Positions 8,840-22,942 of a stretch of 31,092 nucleotides of DNA are shown in pieces (the first letter of the stretch is position 1; each line of letters opens with the position of its first letter). The DNA comes from a virus. Made by a program: the position numbers and the translations under genes. The DNA lies in IMG/VR virus record IMGVR_UViG_3300030106_005687, positions 1 to 31,092 of that record, one strand, 5' to 3'. A model generated the notes under the pieces. The model did no database searches. It had not been told where the DNA came from and saw only the letters and a list, made by a program, of their open reading frames with translations.

Positions 8840-9244
8840 ATGACTACAGAAAATGCAGTACCACTCGACAAACTTGCAGCTTGTCGTAGAAAAATTAAAG
8901 CTAAGATTCAAGAGATTGATAAGGATGCTGAGAATAAAAAGAAGTCTTTACAAGACAAACTAACTTTACTGGATCAAGGTATCAAAGATCAGATGTTGGC
9001 GTTGGGAGTTAAGAGTGTGAAGACTGAGCAAGGCACTATCATTCTTAGTGAGAAGACAACGTATGCTACTAATGACTGGGCAGAGATGGACAAGTTTGTT
9101 GTAGAGAATGCAGTGCCTAGTTTGTTGCAGCGCCGCATCTCACAAACAAACATTCAACAGTACCTACTTGAGAACCCTGACAATATTCCTGCTGGGTTGT
9201 ATAGCAATACTAACTATCAAGTATCAGTGCGGAAACCCACATGA
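8840..9244 (+). CDS. phage protein of unknown function with N-terminal coiled coil, 134 aa
   Basis: The ATG at 8840 has a strong AAAGGAG site 8 bases upstream. Residues 10-50 form a charged coiled coil (KIKAKIQEIDKDAENKKKSL); residues 55-130 are a conserved-looking domain with GVKSVKTEQGTIILSE, DWAEMDKFVVEN, LLQRRISQTNIQQYL and NIPAGLYSNTNYQVSVRK. This pattern (coiled coil, TxxGT strand, DW, R-serine-Lys helix, PPG-like end) is one I know from many phages next to ssDNA-binding protein genes. Its function is not established as far as I know. Coupling to recombination is possible from the neighbours. Confidence 0.7.
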   Translation: MTTENAVPLDKLAACRRKIKAKIQEIDKDAENKKKSLQDKLTLLDQGIKDQMLALGVKSVKTEQGTIILSEKTTYATNDWAEMDKFVVENAVPSLLQRRISQTNIQQYLLENPDNIPAGLYSNTNYQVSVRKPT

Positions 9245-9945
9245 GTTTTATTAAACTATCAATAGCAAATAGCGTATTTAAGTTGCGTGGGTCTAGTTCT
9301 GAGGGAGTAACAGAGCTAGATGTTGTGTTGATAAACGCTGCTAAAAACTACAGTAGAGTTTATTACACATCTACTTATGATCCAAACAATCCACGCAGTC
9401 CTGATTGTTGGTCTAGTAATAACGTAAAGCCGGATATGTTATCTCCTGAGATACAGTCTGATACATGTAGCACTTGTGAAAAGAATATAGCAGGATCAGG
9501 AGTGGGTGCTACAAGGGCGTGTAGGTTTTATCAATACGTCGCGTTGTTATTAGCCAATGATTTAGGCGGCGCAGTTATTCAGTTAGCTGTGCCGGGGTCT
9601 TCTATATTTGGTAAGACAGATGGTGGAAGCTACTCAATGAAATCTTATGCTAAATATTTAGTGCAAGAAAACATTGATCCTGAAATGCTTGTCACTAAAA
9701 TGTCTTTTGACCCAACCTCTATGGCAGCAAAGATATTATTTAAACCTGCTAGGTGGTTGACTGCTGAAGAACAAGCTCTTGTTTTAAACCGAGGTAAGTC
9801 GGATGCTGCAATGAGAGCAATCAAGATGTCGTTTGCACCTGCGAGTGTGAGTAATATTGATGCAGCTAATTTAAAACTTACTGACAAAAACTTTGCAGTA
9901 TTGTCGCAAGCTATGGGCATGACCGCAGATATTAAATTTAACTAA
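9241..9945 (+). CDS. four-cysteine phage protein, candidate ssDNA-binding or recombination factor, 234 aa
   Basis: Starts in overlap with the previous gene (ATGA). It carries a likely metal site from C56 (DCWSSNN), C76 and C79 (DTCSTCEKN) and C94 (ATRACRFYQ), separated by a Gly-rich GSGVGAT loop. Beta-rich segments follow (VIQLAVPGSSIFGK, TKMSFDPTSMAAKILFKPARWL). The C-W-S...P-D...CxxC...RACR pattern occurs in many phage proteins encoded beside replication genes; I know no proven function. Its last 22 residues contain a segment similar to the N-terminus of the next protein. Confidence 0.7.
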   Translation: MSFIKLSIANSVFKLRGSSSEGVTELDVVLINAAKNYSRVYYTSTYDPNNPRSPDCWSSNNVKPDMLSPEIQSDTCSTCEKNIAGSGVGATRACRFYQYVALLLANDLGGAVIQLAVPGSSIFGKTDGGSYSMKSYAKYLVQENIDPEMLVTKMSFDPTSMAAKILFKPARWLTAEEQALVLNRGKSDAAMRAIKMSFAPASVSNIDAANLKLTDKNFAVLSQAMGMTADIKFN

Positions 9946-9956
9946 AGGAGTATTTT

Positions 9957-10901
9957 ATGAGTGATTTGACCGTGTTGAACAAGAATAACTTTGCTGCTAT
10001 GGCAGAAGCTATGGGCATGAACGCTGATACAGCAAAGAGTAGTGGTAGTACATTAGCGCGTCTTGCTATTGATACTAAAGGAGTGTTTGGAGAAACGTCT
10101 GTCAAAGGTAAAAAGAAAAAGGTGGAGATTGTTTCTGCTGGTAGTTATGTTCTTAAGAAAACTGATGGCACAAAACTGTTTCAAGAGACTGTAGAGATTA
10201 GATTGTACATTCAACGATTTCAGTACGAGTTGTATAAGCAGGACGGTGATAAGAAATCTTTTATTAGATCCGTGTTAGCAGGTAATTTTAGTAGTGATCT
10301 TCCTGATTCCGCAGGCGGTATGAACTGTGGTAGACAGCGAGGGTATGTTGAAGATTACAATTCACTTACGCAAGAACAAAAAGATGTTAAACGTGTAAGA
10401 GTATTATTTGGAGAAGTAAAATTCACTGACCCTGTAGATGAAGAAGGTAATGAAGTCGGCTCTGTTACAACTCCATTCATATGGGATGTTAAGAACAACG
10501 AAGCGTTTAAGATTATGGGGCAGCCTATCGCAGAGATGATGGAGCAGCAGATACTTCTTCCAGAGCGTTGGATTTCACTAGGAACAGAAGAGCGTTCATC
10601 TCCTTCTATAACATGGTATATTCCAACTGCTTCACTTCTTCCTGATGTATTGCCGTTAGGTAAAGAAGAGCAGAAACTGTTTGCAGATTTTAATGCTTGG
10701 ATAAAAAATAGTAACGAGCAAACCATGAGTAAGCACAAGTCAACAAGTGTCGCGCCTGCTGCTCAGAGCGTGGAAGTTTTAGAAGATGTTGTTGAAGAGC
10801 CGGAAGTTCGTAAGGTAAAAAAGGTTGCGCCAGTGAAACCAAAACAGTCAGACTTAGGTAATGTTGTAGACGAGATTGATAATTGGGATACGGATGACTA
10901 A
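9957..10901 (+). CDS. probable single-stranded DNA-binding protein, 314 aa
   Basis: The ATG at 9957 is preceded by AAAGGAGTATTTT. After a short leader (residues 7-24 similar to the end of the previous protein) comes a beta-rich core (VKGKKKKVEIVSAGSYVLKK, FQETVEIRLYIQRFQYELYK, KRVRVLFGEVKF, ATTPFIWDVKN-like strands). A Pro/Val-rich linker (residues about 245-300) follows, then a very acidic end VVDEIDNWDTDD. A flexible linker with an acidic tail is the hallmark of phage and bacterial SSBs, whose tails bind partner proteins. The neighbours fit. I do not see a classical OB-fold signature, so the call is probable rather than sure. Confidence 0.6.
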   Translation: MSDLTVLNKNNFAAMAEAMGMNADTAKSSGSTLARLAIDTKGVFGETSVKGKKKKVEIVSAGSYVLKKTDGTKLFQETVEIRLYIQRFQYELYKQDGDKKSFIRSVLAGNFSSDLPDSAGGMNCGRQRGYVEDYNSLTQEQKDVKRVRVLFGEVKFTDPVDEEGNEVGSVTTPFIWDVKNNEAFKIMGQPIAEMMEQQILLPERWISLGTEERSSPSITWYIPTASLLPDVLPLGKEEQKLFADFNAWIKNSNEQTMSKHKSTSVAPAAQSVEVLEDVVEEPEVRKVKKVAPVKPKQSDLGNVVDEIDNWDTDD

Positions 10902-14057: not shown

Positions 14058-14205
14058 AAAGGGGCAAGGATTTTTTGTCCCCTGTTTAAATACGCAAAAG
14101 GTTTATGAGGAAGGATTAAAAGAAGCTATATCTCAAAAAGTATTAGATGCTAAAGCTATTATAGGAATTAAGCAGCAACGGCTGGGCGTTCTATTCTTTG
14201 TTTAA
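14026..14205 (+). CDS. small conserved-looking phage protein, 59 aa, overlapping both neighbours
   Basis: An ATG at 14026, inside the last 32 bases of the primase gene, opens a 59-codon frame to TAA at 14203-14205. The product begins MKIQYPWKKLKKGQGFFVPC and continues with VYEEGLKEAISQKVLDAKAI and GIKQQRLGVLFFV. The layout YPW-xK(L/M)-x-x-G-x-x-F-(F/V)-VP near the N-terminus, a central helix and a short strand at the end matches a small phage protein type I know from marine phages (function unknown). The ribosome site is weak (AAAAGAAG), so coupling to the primase gene is likely. Its last 38 bases are antisense to the end of the giant leftward gene. Confidence 0.65.
   Translation: MKIQYPWKKLKKGQGFFVPCLNTQKVYEEGLKEAISQKVLDAKAIIGIKQQRLGVLFFV
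14056..14083 (-). terminator. rho-independent terminator for the leftward operon
   Basis: Read on the minus strand, GGGG-A-CAA pairs with TTGCCCC (seven base pairs, one bulged A, seven-base loop) and is followed at once by TTTTT. It lies about 85 bases past the stop of the giant gene, where leftward transcription should end. On the plus strand the same hairpin is followed by TGTTTAAATA, so it may also act weakly on rightward transcription. It lies within the coding sequence of the 59-residue gene. Confidence 0.7.
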
Positions 14206-17200
14206 GTTCTTTAAATTTTTTTGATATATCAATTCTTAATTGTTTAAGTCTTTTTATTTCTTTTCTTTTTTCATCTGCCGTTAAATCTTTACTACCTCGA
14301 ACAAATGCTTCTCTGTTATTTATTTTACCCATAGTACGCACGTATCTACCTGATGCAGTGCTTAACTGAATACGTGATAAGTTTTTCTGCAAATATTTTT
14401 TTGCCTGTTCTGGTTGATTGTTTTTTATAAAGTTGTTGTATGTTTTCTTTGCGCTTGTAGCATCAGCAACTGTTTCATATGCTTGGCTAATTAAATATCC
14501 TGAGTCTGTAGGTTGAAAAAAACTTTTTACTAGAGGTACATCTGTGATATCAAACGATGGCTGCTCAACACTTTCTCCTGTAGGCATGGCTTTAAATCCA
14601 AGTGCATCTGGAATACTAAGTAGGGCTAACCCCAAAGAACCTGTGTAACCACGCACTATGTACTCTGCTTTTAAAGGCGATATACCAGCGTAGCCTAGTG
14701 TTTTTAATAACTCTGGGGTGCTTGATTTGTATTGAGCTATTGGATCTGTGCCAGAAAATCTACCTCCTACAACAGGAGCATCTAAGAAGAAAGAGTAATT
14801 AGATTGAGCTTCTATTATAGGTTTTAAAGTTAAAGGTATATCTCCCGGAACACTACGAACCGCCATCTTACCTATGTCTTTTAAAATACTAGAGGCTTTA
14901 TCATCACTAGCCATTAAACGAACAAGCCCTTCAGGAATGGCTTTAAATATTATTCCTAACTCAAAAGGTATTGGTACTTTAAAAGGCTTTTCCATACCGG
15001 GTACTGGCACAAACCAATTACCAAATCTTTGATACGGCTGTGCATTTTCATACGTCTCGTCATCATCCCACGCAATAGCATAAGCTGCAGTAAGAGCAGC
15101 TAATAAAGCTCCACGTTTTAATAATTTAGTTTTAATTTTTAATCTATCTTGATAAGTCATAGTGCCTTTCATTGCTCTATAAGTTACATCAAGACCTTGA
15201 ATGTTTGCTGAAAGAAAAGGAATCATAGCATTTAAAAACATTACACTGGGAGAAACACCTCGCCTAGTAAAGTTCATAAGTTCTAAAGATGCTAACTCAG
15301 CTTCACGTTTAGATAGCCCTTGTTTAATAAACGAATCGTAGTTGTTTGCGCGTGTTGCTATATCACCCGATACAGCCAAAGCATCTAAGTTAGCTGCTAT
15401 CATATGCCAACCCGGTTTGCCTGAAGCTATTCCAGAAAATATTTTTTTAACATCTCTAGGAGAACCAGAGAATACTTGACCGCCACCAACTCCTGCGGCA
15501 CGAAGTTCTTTTGCAGCGTCACTCTCTCCTTTAGCCATTTTACCTAATGTTTTAAACGCTCCTAGTATAGGTACAGTATTACCTCCACTTGTGAAACTAG
15601 CAATCACAGAGTCTCTAAATATCTGACGTAGTGCATAGTCAGGAGAACGAGTAATAAAAGATCTAAAGATATTTGTAGGGATACTAAACACGTTCATTAT
15701 TCCGGGCAGAGTAGTTTGTATGCCGTCTAATCCTTTAACTAATAAATCAGCAGGCATATCTTTAAATGCTTCTACATTCTCTGGAGTAATTTCCCACGTT
15801 GTTTCTTTACCATTTTCTTTTGCAGTAATTGTAGTAGGCTTTTTCTTAACTGCTTCACTAGAAGAAACTTTCTTTGCTATGCCCAAGCCTTCTAGTGTTA
15901 AAGCTACGTTTCTTGTAGCTATGTTACGTAACGCAAGATCCATTATTATCTGCGTATTTTGTAATGCAGTTTCTGTAATGTCTCGTGCAAGGGGTTGTTG
16001 ATTTTTTAAATCTTCTGGTAAACCAACTAACTCTTTAAGCTCTGGCTGTTTAGATAAGTTACCAATCTTAAGAACTTCTTCTCCATCAATAACTAAATCA
16101 ACTATTCCATCTTTTCTAGGGCGGTACGCTGGGATATAATCTTTTCTTCGTTTTAATTCTCTTGCTTTATTTGCATCAATATACCCTGTATCTGCAAGCA
16201 AATTAATTAAGTCATTGTTGTATTCGTTGTAATATTTTCTAGCTTCTTGAAATGCTTTGTTGTTACGGCCAGCCTGTTGTACAGCGTCTCTTTGTGCTTT
16301 AGAAATTTTATCTAAGCCTAGCTTTCTTACTCCATCAGGAATAGATTCAGCCCTTTCTATTAGCATGTACCCAGTAAATGCTTTCGTTGCATTAGCATCT
16401 TTAAACTTTGCTCTACCAAGAGCTTCTGCAACTTTTTTTATAGAAGATGTTTCTTTTTTTATGTCTCTACCAATGCTAACTTCCCCAGTTTTAGGGTCTT
16501 TTATAACTTGTGCTACCCCAGTGGTAGCAGCTTCAGCAACTAGACTTTGGCGTTGGTCATACTTTCTTATAAAATAAGTTAAATCAGTAGCTGCTATTGC
16601 ATCTAATAATGGATTGCCAAATTTATCTTTTAATGTTTGCCCGGTTATTTTAATTCTTTCTAAGATATCGGCTCTATCAATAAACTGCGTTCGAAAATTA
16701 AGACCCTCCCAGTTTGCAGTTAATTTTTCATATTGTGACGTAGGCTTTTCAATTATCTTATCTATTACTTCCATAACATTAATGTTTGGCGTAGTAAATT
16801 CTGGCACAGTCGCTGCGGTAGATAAGGAAATTGTGCCGTCTTCATTGCGGTAGGTGTATGCTTTACCTTGTTTAAAGTTTTTCTCAGCTTGACGCATTAA
16901 GAAAAATAATTCATCTGTAGATATTTTTGGTAGTGAAATAAAACCAAAGTTTTTTACTAAAGTATTTCTAAACATGTAGACCATATCTTGTAAAAACTTT
17001 TTAACTTTACTAGCAAATGTTTTTGTAACAGGTTTATCTAGTTTTTGTGCAGTATAAGCAATGACTTCACGAAGAGCTTTTAGCTGTGCTAGTCGTACAA
17101 CTTCTTTACTAGATAATGTACCCTCTTCTAGGCCACGTTGTGTAGAACTAAGACTTTCTAAGAATGCTTGTTGTGCTTCTTTCTCTACCCCAAGTTCTCT

Positions 17201-20200
17201 AGCTAATTCAAATACAGCAGGATTATCTTTTGTAGCAGGGTAAGATTTTTCAACACGTTTAAGTAGCTTATCCATGCCATCTTTACCAAGCATTCCTTCA
17301 AACGTGTAGTGTCCTACTAACTCATGGGCTAGTGTAATCTCTAAGTCTTCTATACTTTCGTGATGACTAGTAATTACAAACACTGTGCCGTCAGGCATTA
17401 CTCCACCTTTTACTCTATTAGCATGGGCGCTCATGTTTTGAAATGCTAAGTTGTCAAGTATCTCGTTTGGTAGTTGAGTTGTATCTTCATAAACATTAAG
17501 TGTAATGCCCATCTTTTTAGTCTTAGCTTGCATGTCTTTTAAAAGAGGTGCGGCTTCAGTAAATTTTACTATTCCGAAGTTAACTGCCCCAATTCTATAT
17601 AAAATGTCTTGCCCAGATATACTATTGATAAGATTAGTAGTTTCAGTGTCATCAAAAGTTTCTATTGGGTCTACGCCAAGACTTTTAAGACTAGCTTTTA
17701 GTTTATCTTTTTCTTGTAATTCTTTATCAAGAAATTTATCATACTCACTTGGATCAAAACTTACAGAAGTTTGTGCAACTACAGCATCTGTATAATTTTC
17801 TTGTGCATTTTTTAATTTTGCTTGGGCATCTGATAACTCACGAGGCTGTGTTGTTGGGTCTTTTTCTAACTTAATTACTTCAGCTTTAGCATCTGCAACA
17901 ATAGCTTTTAATTCTTCAACTTCTGTATTTAATTCTTTAGCTACAGTTTTTCTATTTTCAGGAGATACGTTATCAAAAAGTATTCTTATATTATTAGCAT
18001 GTTCTTTAGCTTCACTAAATAAAATATCTTTATTTTTTGATAATGTTTTTATTGTGCGCTTACGAGTTGCTGCACTATCTCCTTCTTCTTTTATAGTTTG
18101 TTTAAAATATTCAACAATTTGTTCTTCAGTTTTAATATCTTTTTTAATATCTTTTTTTTGCCTACTGCTTAAATTTAAATCGTTTAAAGATTCTTTAAGC
18201 TCTTTTATTTTTTCTTTTCGTATATCTAAAGTGCTTTGTTGAATATCAAAACCTCGACTAAGTTTTTTATTTTTTATATCTTTTTGTATATCCTCTATTG
18301 CCTGTATGTAATTTTGTTGTCTGGCTCGTGCGTGTAGTAACTTACCTTTAAAAGAACTAATCGAGGCTTTTAAACTTTTTTTATCTTTTTCAGACATCTT
18401 AATAATCGTGCCTGCTATTTTTCCTTCTTTAATTCCTTCTTCTAACTCTGCTTGCTTGTCAGCGATTATATTTTCATATCTAGGAATGTCATATATTTTT
18501 TCTTTTTTTCTTATTTCTTTTAAAGATTGTTTATTTAAGTTTGTTGGGTCTATAACTTCAGTTTCTACTCTAATTCCCGGTAAATCTAAACCTGTTTGTT
18601 GTTTAGCTTTTGCATCTATATCAACCTTTGGTAGTTTTGCAAGTTCACTTTTTGTTTTATCAAGTTGTTTTTGTACAACGTCTCGTATAGTTTCAGTTTG
18701 TTTGTTTCTAAACTCAAGAGTTTTTTGAGTTTGTTCAGCAGCTTTTATTTTTGCTGGTAGTTCTTTTAATAAAATAGATAGTGTTTCTTTGTACTCAGCC
18801 TTTGGATTTTGTTTTGCTTGAGTGATAGCAGTTTTTATAGTTTTTATGTCTGTTTTCAAATCATTGAGTTCTTTTTTAGCAAGCTCTGCATTTTTCTTAA
18901 TAGCTGCTATATTAGTAAAATCAAACACAGTTGTTGCCAACTTCCCCGGCTCAAGTTCTTCAAGCAATCTTACGCCTGAAATTTTTTTTGATGTTTTTAA
19001 AACTCCTTTTGCTTGTAATTTTTTTAATTGATTAATTAATATTTTTTCTCTTCTATTTAATATAGCGTCATTTTTTTTAGCAATCTTTTCATCAGGATTT
19101 CTTGGAGCAGCACGGTCATTTTTTAAAGAGTTAAAAGACTCTGAAAGCTCTACAACATTTTCTCTATTTAAAGCTGTTAAATTATTTTGAGCTTCATTTA
19201 TTTTTTTAAGTTTTTTTAATCCTTTTTCTAATCGATCATTAAAAGGTTTAAGTTTCTCTTCTAATGTTTTTATTTCATCAATTAATTTTTCTTGTTTTTC
19301 TTTTTCTGGTTGAATAAGCGTACTAGTATCTTCAGGTGGAATATCTTCAATTTCTTTAAGTTTATTTTCTAAATTTTTAAGTTTTGTTTGTTCAGACTTA
19401 ATATTAGTTTTAAACTCTTTTATACTTTTTCTTATGTTTGGTAATTTTTTAGGATCTGTAGCAGAATCTTTTTTTGCTTCTTCAAGAATTTTTAAACGCT
19501 CTTCTAAATTATTAAGATTAGTTTTAACTGTTTCTATATTTGTAGGAATTAAAAATTCTTTTTGAGTTGTTTCTATTTTTTTATCTAAGTTGTTTAATCG
19601 CTTAGTTAATCTAGTTTTATCACTTTGTGTTTTTGCAGTTTTTAAATTTTTTTCTACCGCAGTTTTTTCGTCAGTTAGTTTTGCTATTTTAGTGTTTACT
19701 TTTGAAATAACAGAGTTAGCTCTTGTTGTAATTTTTTTTATATCTTCTGTAACATCTTTTAATTCTGTTTTTAAGTTATTAAGATTATCTTGTAAAATAT
19801 CTTCTTCTTTTCGTTTTATAACTGGGGCAACATCTTTAGGTGGAAGCTCTACTTCTAACTCCGGCTCAGGCTTAATACCTTTACTATCTTTAATTGTTTT
19901 TAAATTATCTTGACGTAGATTTTCTATTTCTTTAAGAAGACTGTAGACTTTTTTATCTGTAGGCAGTTCTCCTGTAGGCACATCAGTAATTCTGTTAAGT
20001 AGACTATCAAAAGAACTTTTTAATTTTATACGTAGTTGATTTTCTTCTAACTCAGTAAGAGGTTGTTGTTTTTTAGAATTTCTATAAGCATTTACTTCTT
20101 TAACAGCATTTTCTACATAAGTTAGTGTTGCCTCATTAGCATCTTTAACAATCCTAGCTTTTAAACTTTTTGCTTTTGATGTATCTCTTTCACTTATTCC

Positions 20201-22942
20201 AGCTTTTAGTTTTTTTATTTTTGCATCTACGTTAATTTTTTTTCGTTCTAACTCTCTTTGTTGCTCACGATTAGCTGCAGCTAATTTTATTTGCTCTGCA
20301 TAATACTTTGAATCATCCGTTAATCTTTCTATGTCTTGTTTAGCTTTTGCGTTACGCTCTCTTTCTTTTAAAGTAAGTGTGTCAGTAACACCTAAAAAAT
20401 TTCCACGATCTAATTTAAAAGCTGCGTCTTTAAAGTTTGTAAATGCAGGCGTTGTAGCATCAACTTTTTTTGTATCTTTAAAAGGAACATCTCTACCTTT
20501 TAATTGTTTAGTTATTTGTCTTATTTGATTATTAATATTATTTTTTTGAACTACGGTTAAAAATTGTTTAGTTATTTGTCTTATTTGATTATTAATATTA
20601 TTTTTTTGAGCTACGGTTAAATCTTCGTTTGCTAAACGATCTTCAAGCGCATCTCTTTTTTGTATTAGATTATCTTCGTTTGCTAAACGATCTTCAAGCT
20701 CATCTCTTTTTTGTATTAGATTAAGATCTTCTTGTCTTATTGCTGCACTTTCAACCGCTTGCCCAGCTATAGCTTCAAATCTTTTAGCAGCAGCACTAGT
20801 CTCATCGGCTCTGTAGTTATCATCATCGGCTCTGTAGTTATCAATAAGTGCTTGAGCGTCTGCTGCCAATGCGTTTTCAAAGTTTTTTTGATAAGCTACT
20901 CCTACAAATTCAGAATATTTGCCTGTAGGTTCTTTATTTAGATCACTTATAGCTGCTGTTTTAACTCTGTTTAAAACATTAAATTTCATTTCATCTTGAG
21001 CTAGTTGTAATCCTTTTCGTGTTAGTTGGCCTTTTTCATTAAACAATGTAACTTTTGGAGAAACAGCATTTAACACATCTCCTATGCGTTTTTTATTTAA
21101 TTCTTTTAACCGTTCGTTAATTTCAGGAATATACTCATAAGCAGGACTTTCTTTATCAACTTTTATACCAAGAGCTTTTCCTGATACAGGAGTTAAAATA
21201 CCCTCATACAATTGAGCTTCTAATTTTTTTCTAGTTTCAAAATTTGCTTTAGGAAATACTCCTGTCATCTCTAACTTATCAATATATCGCGCATATTTTT
21301 CTATGTTCTCATCTGTAAGCAAAGCATTTAGTTGTTCTTGTTCTCTAGCTTTTCGTTTATCAATACCTTCTTGCGGTCTTTGTCGAGCAGATGCTGCAAT
21401 TGCTTTTAAAGAAGTTCCTATATCTTGGTTATATATTTTGTTTACTTCTGCAACTCTTTTTTTATTCTCTATTTCAAACAAATCCCCTTGATCTGTTTCT
21501 TGCTGCACTTCCTCTAACTGTTTGCTTAAATTTGAAAGTTTAGTAAACTCGCCTTTACTACTGGCATTTATCATAGCATTTTTAATGCGAATTTCTTCTT
21601 GCTCAACTACAGAACGATCCCTAGTTTTTATTATCTTACGTGGAGTTAACTTTAAATCAGGCGCAATATTTTTTGCTTCTTCAACAACTTTATTTCTGTT
21701 AGCTTCTAATCTTTCAAGTTGATTAGTTAATGCACTAATCTTAGATACGTCTGTATCAGTTTTGGTAGCTTCTTCATTTATTTTTATTTGTGTATTAGTA
21801 ATATCTTCTGACAAACTTTGATACACTCTTGTAAACTCTGCTTCTTGTTCTGCAACTTCTGTTTCTCTTTTTATTTTTGTTTCCTCATCAGGAACAAAAG
21901 GATCTCTTAACAATCCTCCAAGAAGATCTGTTTCTATTTCTTTTTTAGCAGCTTCATCTGCAGCTTTTTCTTGAGCAAGTTGTGCTTGTCGTGCTTCTTC
22001 ATCAGCCACAGTTTTTTGATCGAACCTTGTTTTTCTACCGCCTAATGCAGAAGTAGTTATAGCTTCCGCTAAAGCACCAACTGTAAAGCCAACTCCTGCT
22101 TCGTCAATTATTTGATCTCCAACAATAAGAGGTTGGTCAGGATCGTAAACCTTTTGTGCAATAGCATTTTGAATTATGCCTTGTGTTACTTCTGTAGCTG
22201 CTTCAAAAACACCTACTCCCGCAGGATCTAATAATCGTTGAGAAAGTTTTGTGCGTAGTTCACCAGCTATCTCGCTATCAGTTTTACCTGTTATACGTTT
22301 TAACACTCTAAAAGAAGGAACAACAGCATCTATTAAACCGGGAAGAATACCAAGTCCTGTAGCAGCAGCTACTTCTCCTTCTGTTGCACCTGCTTCTTGC
22401 GCTCTTTCACGGGCTTCACCAGCACCTACTGCTCCACCAAAAGTCGTAGCAGCGCCTGTAGCTAGTTGTCCTGTGGCTCTTGTGCCTGCCCCTGCTAATC
22501 TTGCTACTCCGACTGCGGCTCCACCCGGCACTAAGAAAGATGTAAAGCTACCAATACCTTCTCCAACCTTTGGAAGAAATCCATATAGTCCTTCAGCATC
22601 TCTGTATTCTGGTGCAAGCTCAGGAGACAAGGCTTCACTAACAGCCTCAAGTCCACTTACTACAGGAGTCTCTGCAGACTCTGGCAATAAGGCAGCTAAA
22701 CCTTTTCCTGCTGTTTCAAGAGATCCAACAAATCCTCTACCAACACCCTTAACTGTTTCTTTAAGAGCGCCTCCAAAAGTAGGATCAGGTAATTCTGGTT
22801 CTGGTTCTGGTACTAGTTCAGGTTCTGGCTCAGGCTCTATAGAACGTAGCACTCTAGCAATAGCTTCATCATCTGTTAAAGGAACAGGTGAATCAACTCT
22901 AAATGCTCCTTTGTTTGGTATATTAACTTGATAACTAGGCAT
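14168..22942 (-). CDS. giant polyvalent-type virion protein with zincin and LPD38-like regions, 2924 aa
   Basis: One unbroken frame of 2924 codons. The ATG at 22942 follows AGGGGAATAAATATTT. Regions in order: N-terminal part with an EPEPEP stretch (35-50); a Gly/Ala-rich segment (about 60-300) like those of membrane-inserting internal virion proteins; charged helical sequence with three tandem duplications (about 700-814); about 900 residues of Lys/Glu-rich helix or coiled coil (870-1740); a zincin-like domain with TLAHELVGHY (H1873, E1874, H1878) and REVIAY (E1959, possible third ligand). The C-terminal third has NIATRNVAL, RSPDYALRQIFRDSVIASF and GVGGGQVFSGSPRD, resembling the LPD38 large polyvalent protein-associated region. 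Such proteins are packaged and injected with phage DNA. No lytic transglycosylase or polymerase motif was found. Confidence 0.8.
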   Translation of the reverse strand: MPSYQVNIPNKGAFRVDSPVPLTDDEAIARVLRSIEPEPEPELVPEPEPELPDPTFGGALKETVKGVGRGFVGSLETAGKGLAALLPESAETPVVSGLEAVSEALSPELAPEYRDAEGLYGFLPKVGEGIGSFTSFLVPGGAAVGVARLAGAGTRATGQLATGAATTFGGAVGAGEARERAQEAGATEGEVAAATGLGILPGLIDAVVPSFRVLKRITGKTDSEIAGELRTKLSQRLLDPAGVGVFEAATEVTQGIIQNAIAQKVYDPDQPLIVGDQIIDEAGVGFTVGALAEAITTSALGGRKTRFDQKTVADEEARQAQLAQEKAADEAAKKEIETDLLGGLLRDPFVPDEETKIKRETEVAEQEAEFTRVYQSLSEDITNTQIKINEEATKTDTDVSKISALTNQLERLEANRNKVVEEAKNIAPDLKLTPRKIIKTRDRSVVEQEEIRIKNAMINASSKGEFTKLSNLSKQLEEVQQETDQGDLFEIENKKRVAEVNKIYNQDIGTSLKAIAASARQRPQEGIDKRKAREQEQLNALLTDENIEKYARYIDKLEMTGVFPKANFETRKKLEAQLYEGILTPVSGKALGIKVDKESPAYEYIPEINERLKELNKKRIGDVLNAVSPKVTLFNEKGQLTRKGLQLAQDEMKFNVLNRVKTAAISDLNKEPTGKYSEFVGVAYQKNFENALAADAQALIDNYRADDDNYRADETSAAAKRFEAIAGQAVESAAIRQEDLNLIQKRDELEDRLANEDNLIQKRDALEDRLANEDLTVAQKNNINNQIRQITKQFLTVVQKNNINNQIRQITKQLKGRDVPFKDTKKVDATTPAFTNFKDAAFKLDRGNFLGVTDTLTLKERERNAKAKQDIERLTDDSKYYAEQIKLAAANREQQRELERKKINVDAKIKKLKAGISERDTSKAKSLKARIVKDANEATLTYVENAVKEVNAYRNSKKQQPLTELEENQLRIKLKSSFDSLLNRITDVPTGELPTDKKVYSLLKEIENLRQDNLKTIKDSKGIKPEPELEVELPPKDVAPVIKRKEEDILQDNLNNLKTELKDVTEDIKKITTRANSVISKVNTKIAKLTDEKTAVEKNLKTAKTQSDKTRLTKRLNNLDKKIETTQKEFLIPTNIETVKTNLNNLEERLKILEEAKKDSATDPKKLPNIRKSIKEFKTNIKSEQTKLKNLENKLKEIEDIPPEDTSTLIQPEKEKQEKLIDEIKTLEEKLKPFNDRLEKGLKKLKKINEAQNNLTALNRENVVELSESFNSLKNDRAAPRNPDEKIAKKNDAILNRREKILINQLKKLQAKGVLKTSKKISGVRLLEELEPGKLATTVFDFTNIAAIKKNAELAKKELNDLKTDIKTIKTAITQAKQNPKAEYKETLSILLKELPAKIKAAEQTQKTLEFRNKQTETIRDVVQKQLDKTKSELAKLPKVDIDAKAKQQTGLDLPGIRVETEVIDPTNLNKQSLKEIRKKEKIYDIPRYENIIADKQAELEEGIKEGKIAGTIIKMSEKDKKSLKASISSFKGKLLHARARQQNYIQAIEDIQKDIKNKKLSRGFDIQQSTLDIRKEKIKELKESLNDLNLSSRQKKDIKKDIKTEEQIVEYFKQTIKEEGDSAATRKRTIKTLSKNKDILFSEAKEHANNIRILFDNVSPENRKTVAKELNTEVEELKAIVADAKAEVIKLEKDPTTQPRELSDAQAKLKNAQENYTDAVVAQTSVSFDPSEYDKFLDKELQEKDKLKASLKSLGVDPIETFDDTETTNLINSISGQDILYRIGAVNFGIVKFTEAAPLLKDMQAKTKKMGITLNVYEDTTQLPNEILDNLAFQNMSAHANRVKGGVMPDGTVFVITSHHESIEDLEITLAHELVGHYTFEGMLGKDGMDKLLKRVEKSYPATKDNPAVFELARELGVEKEAQQAFLESLSSTQRGLEEGTLSSKEVVRLAQLKALREVIAYTAQKLDKPVTKTFASKVKKFLQDMVYMFRNTLVKNFGFISLPKISTDELFFLMRQAEKNFKQGKAYTYRNEDGTISLSTAATVPEFTTPNINVMEVIDKIIEKPTSQYEKLTANWEGLNFRTQFIDRADILERIKITGQTLKDKFGNPLLDAIAATDLTYFIRKYDQRQSLVAEAATTGVAQVIKDPKTGEVSIGRDIKKETSSIKKVAEALGRAKFKDANATKAFTGYMLIERAESIPDGVRKLGLDKISKAQRDAVQQAGRNNKAFQEARKYYNEYNNDLINLLADTGYIDANKARELKRRKDYIPAYRPRKDGIVDLVIDGEEVLKIGNLSKQPELKELVGLPEDLKNQQPLARDITETALQNTQIIMDLALRNIATRNVALTLEGLGIAKKVSSSEAVKKKPTTITAKENGKETTWEITPENVEAFKDMPADLLVKGLDGIQTTLPGIMNVFSIPTNIFRSFITRSPDYALRQIFRDSVIASFTSGGNTVPILGAFKTLGKMAKGESDAAKELRAAGVGGGQVFSGSPRDVKKIFSGIASGKPGWHMIAANLDALAVSGDIATRANNYDSFIKQGLSKREAELASLELMNFTRRGVSPSVMFLNAMIPFLSANIQGLDVTYRAMKGTMTYQDRLKIKTKLLKRGALLAALTAAYAIAWDDDETYENAQPYQRFGNWFVPVPGMEKPFKVPIPFELGIIFKAIPEGLVRLMASDDKASSILKDIGKMAVRSVPGDIPLTLKPIIEAQSNYSFFLDAPVVGGRFSGTDPIAQYKSSTPELLKTLGYAGISPLKAEYIVRGYTGSLGLALLSIPDALGFKAMPTGESVEQPSFDITDVPLVKSFFQPTDSGYLISQAYETVADATSAKKTYNNFIKNNQPEQAKKYLQKNLSRIQLSTASGRYVRTMGKINNREAFVRGSKDLTADEKRKEIKRLKQLRIDISKKFKELKQRIERPAVAA
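20502..20621. repeat. 60-bp tandem duplication in the giant gene
   Basis: Bases 20502-20561 and 20562-20621 are identical except at one position (20550 A against 20610 G). The unit is 20 codons, so the frame is kept. In the protein it doubles a segment with the core NNINNQIRQITKQ, and the single difference turns VAQ into VVQ. Near-identity means a recent event. Confidence 0.95.
20621..20722. repeat. 51-bp tandem duplication in the giant gene
   Basis: Bases 20621-20671 and 20672-20722 differ only at 20649 (G) against 20700 (T). The unit is 17 codons and encodes LIQKRDELEDRLANEDN followed by LIQKRDALEDRLANEDL. It adjoins the 60-bp duplication, so two separate tandem duplications touch each other. 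Confidence 0.95.
20802..20843. repeat. 21-bp perfect tandem duplication in the giant gene
   Basis: TCATCGGCTCTGTAGTTATC plus one A occurs twice in a row, at 20802-20822 and 20823-20843, without any mismatch. It is seven codons and gives DNYRADD-DNYRADE in the protein. Confidence 0.95.

Follow-up and report, generated by a model that had tools for sequence, protein, structure and literature searches.

In the virus record IMGVR_UViG_3300030106_005687 (31,092 bases, analysed whole and hereafter called the window), two neighbouring genes on the plus strand encode a four-cysteine protein (4C; 9241-9945, 234 residues) and a protein resembling a single-stranded DNA-binding protein (SSB; 9957-10901, 314 residues). 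The end of the first protein and the start of the second carry copies of one conserved peptide, and in the sample examined the 4C copy was never observed without an SSB gene. The two proteins probably coat single-stranded DNA. A docking function is the likely explanation of the peptide, and the SSB itself is its most likely partner. In its full form, the proposal is that a docking helix of the SSB, analogous to the B domain of the phage T4 protein gp32, was copied to the opposite end of 4C, where it would dock this protein on the SSB; we put the chances of this full form at about even.

The 4C copy, LTDKNFAVLSQAMGMTAD, spans residues 213-230 (9877-9930, plus strand), with a helix predicted at low confidence over residues 215-224, and the SSB copy, LNKNNFAAMAEAMGMNAD, spans residues 7-24 (9975-10028, plus strand), with a helix predicted at similarly low confidence over residues 12-18. 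The two segments lie where the initial annotation had placed them, on either side of the gene junction, and agree at 10 of 18 positions, following the pattern [ND]F..h...MGM.AD. Their BLOSUM62 score of 54 is the best of any ungapped 18-residue pair between the whole proteins; this score was reached neither in 5000 shuffles of the 35-residue ends (maximum 40) nor when the whole proteins were shuffled 60 times. The copies also share DNA, as had been noted: the 13-mer GCTATGGGCATGA, read directly on the plus strand, occurs at 9910-9922 and again at 10008-10020.

The resemblance extends beyond this one record. A profile of 57 SSB N-termini matched a profile of six 4C C-termini (two from the window clade) with a probability of 97.1% and an E-value of 4.9e-11 for this single comparison. 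When whole-family profiles of 4C and SSB were compared by hhalign with no ends specified, the peptide segment alone was aligned, weakly (E 0.12, probability 0.5%); this profile comparison found no sequence homology between the two cores, and the link between them is at the level of the fold only. A hidden Markov model (HMM) of 69 SSB N-termini was run on every open reading frame (ORF) of 30 residues or more from 128 sequences, with no partner named beforehand, and its best non-SSB matches were 4C C-termini (window clade, E 1e-5; lineage L032, E 0.024; lineage L056, E 0.24). Likewise, when eight whole records were searched with the SSB profile, the second match in six of them was the C-terminal end of 4C (E 8e-4 to 5e-3). 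The shared peptide is real and more than a chance likeness.

A 4C gene followed by an SSB gene is found in eight lineages (the window clade, L032, L034, L056, L065, L227, L239 and L283). Their 4C proteins are only 26-66% identical to each other and all keep MGM. Among non-redundant 4C proteins with complete C-termini, MGM is present near the C-terminal end in all 15 that have an adjacent SSB gene and in none of the 71 that do not; it is likewise missing there from all 4210 further ORFs that are 100 residues or longer. At least 400 bases follow 4C in 67 of these 71 4C-only loci (at least 1000 in 61), so that an SSB neighbour would be visible in the 67; in the other four, the neighbour lies partly or wholly out of view. 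Six of the 71 entries are named phage records (Rollin, RHph_TM3_14A, KPP25, Effie, Xp15 and ctUtU524). An SSB profile that recovered the SSB in eight of eight positive controls found none in 14 whole records with a stand-alone 4C. The forms taken by the 4C peptide are QAMGMTADIKFN, QAMGMTADIKR, KVMGMAANV, EAMGMAADIK, RAMGMIADI, HVMGMSSDI and QAMGMTADIN, the most diverged being GKMGMEVEV.

The linker before the 4C peptide is altered or shortened among lineages, while the peptide is kept. Over the last 22 codons of 4C, seven window-clade sequences differ by two synonymous and no amino-acid-changing codons; four L065 relatives differ by two synonymous and one changing codon, three L056 relatives by one of each, and two near-identical L032 sequences by none (L218 was left out of this comparison and read separately). 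To judge from these alignments, the peptide is conserved in the manner of a segment under purifying selection. The initial annotation had proposed a common docking peptide and an alignment of homologues as its check; in that alignment both ends are conserved in all eight lineages having both genes, which, together with the counts of 15 of 15 and 0 of 71, bears out a common peptide in the sense of a conserved protein element.

Conservation of the SSB copy was followed in relatives from viral contigs, two of the collections comprising the best 80, and from phage records. M19 and G20 are invariant in all 57 aligned SSBs, and MG[MIV] is present near the start in 197 of 200 SSB relatives longer than 250 residues, repeated contigs included. 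The relatives include gp13 of phage HMO-2011 and proteins of the Roseobacter phages CRP-1, CRP-345, CRP-2, CRP-207 and CRP-603, all recorded as hypothetical; those of CRP-2, CRP-603 and CRP-207 have the peptide in a looser form only. The window SSB has two features of the HMO-2011 type, namely homology over most of the protein and the N-terminal MG[MIV] peptide. In the HMO-2011-type phages, the polymerase gene, not a 4C gene, lies upstream of the SSB, and a 4C profile that recovered 4C in eight of eight positive controls found none in 17 whole records of this type. Since the SSB peptide is kept in these phages, it should have a function within the SSB.

Genes for other replication proteins do not follow the peptide in the same way. 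Among the 71 4C-only loci, 66 contain a relative of the SNF2 helicase, 62 one of the helix-turn-helix protein, 58 one of the DUF927 protein and 33 one of the polymerase. The corresponding counts for the 163 loci that have an SSB and no 4C, and in which the SSB retains its peptide, are 0, 0, 0 and 13. These loci are of limited length, with some contigs repeated, and HMO-2011-type polymerases may be too distant for the search. Because the 4C-only loci mostly keep the helicase and primase genes without the peptide, the peptide on 4C follows the SSB gene rather than those genes. These sequence patterns point to the SSB itself, rather than the primase or helicase, as the partner, and as 4C carries the helix only where an SSB is present, the SSB is its simplest partner.

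In the AlphaFold models of the two proteins, the cores are mostly confident, the cysteine loop of 4C around residues 71-91 being less sure, and both peptides are predicted to be helical. The SSB core (residues 31-264; 10047-10748, plus strand), predicted mostly with high confidence, aligns structurally with the RB69 gp32 core (2a1k_A; Z 8.0, root-mean-square deviation 4.1, 171 residues), with the phiC31 integrase fused to its recombination directionality factor (RDF; 9teh_I, Z 7.8) and with gp32 in complex with Dda (8gme_B; Z 6.9, 166 residues), followed by BRCA2 OB domains at Z 4.2. The 4C model aligns with 9teh (Z 7.8 over 148 residues; by Foldseek, probability 0.89, E 0.017), BRCA2 OB domains (Z 6.5), RB69 gp32 (Z 6.5) and gp32-Dda (Z 5.1). 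A search of predicted viral proteins with the SSB model gave 53 matches at E <= 0.001. Most are uncharacterised, and those listed include two named SSBs and one named RDF. For both cores, the prediction is a likeness to T4-type gp32 and to the phiC31 directionality factor, and the structural matches are mutually consistent and consistent with a role in binding single-stranded DNA, short of proof.

According to PMC3012046, PMC10484735 and PMC11551737, residues 1-20 or 1-21 of T4 gp32 mediate cooperativity by binding the core of the neighbouring molecule. The peptide of the SSB stands in the same place, precedes the same kind of predicted core and is kept without 4C, so that gp32-like work is its simplest reading. 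The repeated segment would then be a conserved short docking helix ending in an MGM.AD motif. On the SSB, this helix would be the counterpart of the gp32 B domain, tethered ahead of the core, and would bind the core of a neighbouring SSB, lining up the molecules cooperatively on single-stranded DNA. 4C, a second protein of predicted gp32 fold, would use its C-terminal copy to dock on the same site of the SSB and thereby join the strand coated by the SSB, cap it or be delivered to it. This copy may be of ancient origin, from the time when an HMO-2011-type SSB gene and a 4C gene came to lie side by side. It is the step from co-occurrence to docking, together with the receptor site and the mechanical role, that we infer here. 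A more specific version is possible but doubtful, namely a two-protein SSB system of gp32 fold with the cooperativity helix at opposite ends, in which 4C is a dedicated filament cap, terminator or loader; with the helix at its C-terminus, 4C would bind such a filament at an end that the SSB itself cannot use, or in an orientation closed to it.

Several observations weigh against the docking helix as proposed. The pLDDT (predicted local distance difference test) of the peptides is low, about 59 in the SSB and about 50 in 4C; the structural matches are middling (Z 8.0, 7.8 and 6.9 for the SSB; 7.8, 6.5, 6.5 and 5.1 for 4C) and were obtained on predicted models, and Foldseek gave no match in the PDB at E <= 0.001 for either one. 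The first 30 residues of the SSB contain no LAST motif, and its peptide has no significant similarity to the N-terminus of T4 gp32 (profile best domain, -2.9 bits); a likeness between the two is not supported. In the peptide scan, two of five 4C lineages stood at chance level when taken alone (L065, E 8.9; L034, E 57), and the SSB profile missed the 4C C-termini of these same two lineages. The two peptides of one genome do not co-vary: over the eight lineages, the summed score of own pairs is 57, against a mean of 57.25 over all permutations. Finally, a third partner common to all the coupled phages, such as the polymerase, retains a share of the probability.

Such a third partner would be a replication protein on which both copies dock, recruiting the two single-stranded DNA-binding proteins together; the candidates are the family A DNA polymerase, the DUF927 primase-helicase-like protein and the SNF2 helicase, all of them encoded in one early region of the window. 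In HMO-2011-type phages, where the SSB peptide is retained, the gene immediately upstream also encodes a family A polymerase. Yet SNF2 is retained in 66, DUF927 in 58 and the polymerase in 33 of the 71 4C-only loci, none of which has the peptide on 4C, and relatives of SNF2 and DUF927 are found in none of the 163 SSB-only loci, which leaves the polymerase as the sole one of the three candidates present in both groups. We consider recruitment by a third protein unlikely, though by no means negligible. Pairing of the helix with itself, giving SSB-SSB, SSB-4C and 4C-4C contacts from peptide to peptide, would account for one predicted helix on two proteins and would need no separate receptor. By inspection, however, the helix is alanine-rich with a glycine at its end and has no heptad pattern, its hydrophobic moments are modest (0.20-0.53), and the gp32 helix appears to bind the core of its partner rather than a like helix: the electron density of the gp32-Dda crystal, as described in PMC11551737, fits a helix packed against helix 141-152 of the partner, whose probable counterpart in the SSB is the helix at residues 181-196. 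Self-pairing is accordingly rated as improbable.

The position of the 4C copy exactly at the gene junction, and a tail of the window SSB that resembles 4C tails, would also suit a scar of gene insertion or duplication that has no function. A scar would hardly be kept in eight of eight lineages whose 4C proteins have diverged to 26-66% identity and whose linkers have changed or shortened, nor would the window clade be expected to show synonymous changes and no amino-acid change; this origin for the conserved copy is highly improbable. Even less probable, to the point of being nearly negligible, is a repeat that acts as RNA or DNA, for example as a site at which the SSB controls its own translation. 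The 13-mer common to both copies in the window would fit such a site, and T4 gp32 controls its own mRNA according to PMC10484735. The codons, though, vary from copy to copy and from lineage to lineage while the encoded residues are kept, and among the five lineages compared by codon the 13-mer is present in both copies only in the window. Docking of 4C on the SSB through a shared helix is the reading that we favour.

The tails of the two proteins bear on how the pair arose. The C-terminal stretch of the window SSB (10698-10898, plus strand) is lysine-rich with an acidic tail ending NWDTDD and resembles the tails of 4C proteins without an SSB neighbour. A tail HMM built from stand-alone 4C proteins gave 16.9 bits (E 0.008) on the window SSB and 19.2 on that of its relative L006, against at most 5.5 on 99 HMO-type SSBs, whose tails are of another kind. 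Among the other coupled lineages, L227-L229 gave 9.8-11.0 bits and the rest at most 4.0 or no match; these SSBs have long lysine-rich, acidic tails with no significant similarity to the tail model. The 4C profile had the SSB tail as its second match in the window (10698-10883, E 1.2e-4), and the window alone gave this result among six coupled records. In the reverse tail scan, stand-alone 4C tails scored up to 24.3 bits (E 7e-5), and none of 35,934 other ORFs exceeded 10.5; its HMO-type control (maximum 62) was unusable, as it probably counts coupled SSBs whose locus lacks 4C. Since its SSB tail resembles 4C tails, the window pair looks like a 4C gene with an SSB gene and its peptide set between core and tail, the 4C core ending in a copy of that peptide, and the likeness fits a reshuffling of genes at this junction.

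The initial annotation had also suggested a short duplication made when one gene was split or joined. Of this, only an old origin is supported, and a recent duplication or gene conversion is not: the own copies of a genome are no closer than crossed copies in the eight lineages, so that the duplication would be old, with each copy held separately to the same pattern. At shared residues, identical non-ATG codons number 5 of 7 in the window, 6 of 9 in L032, 3 of 5 in L034, 1 of 4 in L056 and 2 of 6 in L065. An N-terminal segment of stand-alone 4C proteins (...ELSAMAKALAGG...) was considered as a homologue of the peptide and rejected; it matched the SSB N-terminus with 37% probability (E 3.5e-4) but with other residues aligned, it gave no match to the 4C C-terminal peptide, and homology is not claimed. 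No single reading frame matching both the 4C and the SSB profiles was found. In the L056 lineage (L056 3989-4003), 4C ends with TAG and the SSB starts three codons later in the same frame, one stop codon splitting an open frame of 553 residues. The SSB of L006 (3001-4008) has 22 extra residues inserted in the linker that leads to the acidic tail; the insertion is absent from the window and L001-L005.

In the SSB tree, built before L227, L239 and L283 were added, the 4C-coupled SSBs fall on one side of a branch (10 rows; Shimodaira-Hasegawa-like approximate likelihood ratio test, 94). The peptide-bearing phages do not form one clade in the 4C-core tree or in a first SNF2 tree, in which the window-clade copies L028-L030 were unlabelled, inflating the count of changes. 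A single clade is not rejected by the approximately unbiased test (p-AU 0.171; 12 peptide-bearing rows versus 23 others, L209 giving no row). The trees do not settle a single origin.

At the junction itself, the 4C stop codon is followed by AGGAG, resembling a ribosome-binding site, and by a spacer before the SSB start (9943-9956, plus strand, read directly); the SSB gene is in a different frame from the 4C gene. The core of 4C, for which the AlphaFold model predicts a gp32/phiC31-RDF-like structure, matches phrog_27714, of unknown function, over residues 26-188 (E 4.7e-27). Its cysteines C56, C76, C79 and C94 (codons within 9406-9522, plus strand) are invariant in 45 of 45 aligned relatives and again in a separate alignment of 10 sequences, and form a possible zinc site. 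The SSB-like protein, with its N-terminal peptide, predicted gp32-like OB core and acidic C-terminal tail, had no match at E up to 0.1 among the Pfam and PHROG families, HMMER filters dropping most weaker matches. Near the pair lie genes for a family A polymerase, a PD-(D/E)XK nuclease, an SNF2 helicase, a helix-turn-helix protein and a DUF927 primase-helicase-like protein. Directly before 4C, a 134-residue protein (8840-9244) weakly matches Gam-like families, namely phrog_13900 ('minor head protein') and phrog_253 (Mu Gam-like), and proteins that resemble it by eye stand upstream of 4C in L032, L034, L056, L065 and Rollin. Further along, on the minus strand, 14168-22942 is a single ORF of 2924 residues with long charged stretches, coiled-coil-like by eye.

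No account of this pair was found among the papers listed on two-SSB or gp32-paralogue systems, the RDF fold, the gp32 B domain and HMO-2011. The gene labels in a figure legend of PMC6918029 include SSB, so its authors may already have named one such protein SSB. If the docking reading is true, it explains an unannotated phage gene pair and offers a function for the hypothetical gp13 of HMO-2011 and its relatives. It would also provide, through one helix of 20 residues, a simple system for how a second protein ends or joins a filament of single-stranded DNA-binding protein. Here the putative docking helix stands at the C-terminal end of a family otherwise without one, and by a strict rule, in the sample examined, it stands there only with an SSB.

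Compared with known systems, the window SSB is 37-41% identical over about 80% of the query to HMO-2011 gp13 and its CRP-1 and CRP-345 counterparts and has the same kind of N-terminal peptide; unlike the window, the HMO-2011-type phages have a polymerase gene immediately before the SSB gene and an SSB tail that is shorter and of a different kind, and no 4C was detected in the 17 records searched whole. The window 4C shares its core and four invariant cysteines with phrog_27714 and the stand-alone 4C proteins. The latter are longer, at about 300-330 residues from the chosen start, with an N-terminal extension and, in most of them, an acidic tail ending in WDD or similar, both lacking in the window lineage, and they have neither the MGM peptide nor an SSB neighbour. 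The best structural match of 4C is the phiC31 RDF in the integrase-RDF fusion 9teh, whose matched chain segment, residues 23-239, we take to be the RDF part; a sequence search of solved structures with the 4C and SSB profiles gave nothing beyond chance (4C best E 1.3). In phiC31, gene 3, annotated as hypothetical and presumably the RDF gene, is among the early genes ahead of primase and polymerase. Judged from the predicted models, some 4C-type proteins may be directionality factors that have gone unrecognised; alternatively, an SSB may be the ancestor of the RDF.

The closest parallel in working is the gp32 of T4 and RB69. The SSB has the same order of N-terminal docking segment, OB core (gp32-like in the predicted model only) and acidic C-terminal tail, which in the window ends EIDNWDTDD and is acidic also in coupled relatives, and its peptide precedes the core at the same place as gp32 residues 1-20. 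The core of gp32 has four zinc ligands, one histidine and three cysteines, according to PMC3012046, whereas the SSB has a single invariant cysteine, C124 (57 sequences), and no sequence match to the gp32 family model in Pfam or PHROG. Because the zinc site, the LAST motif and the family match are all absent, the pair is classed as working like gp32 rather than as a member of its family. Where the gp32 system has one protein, the window has two of predicted gp32 fold, the second of them with the peptide at the C-terminal end.

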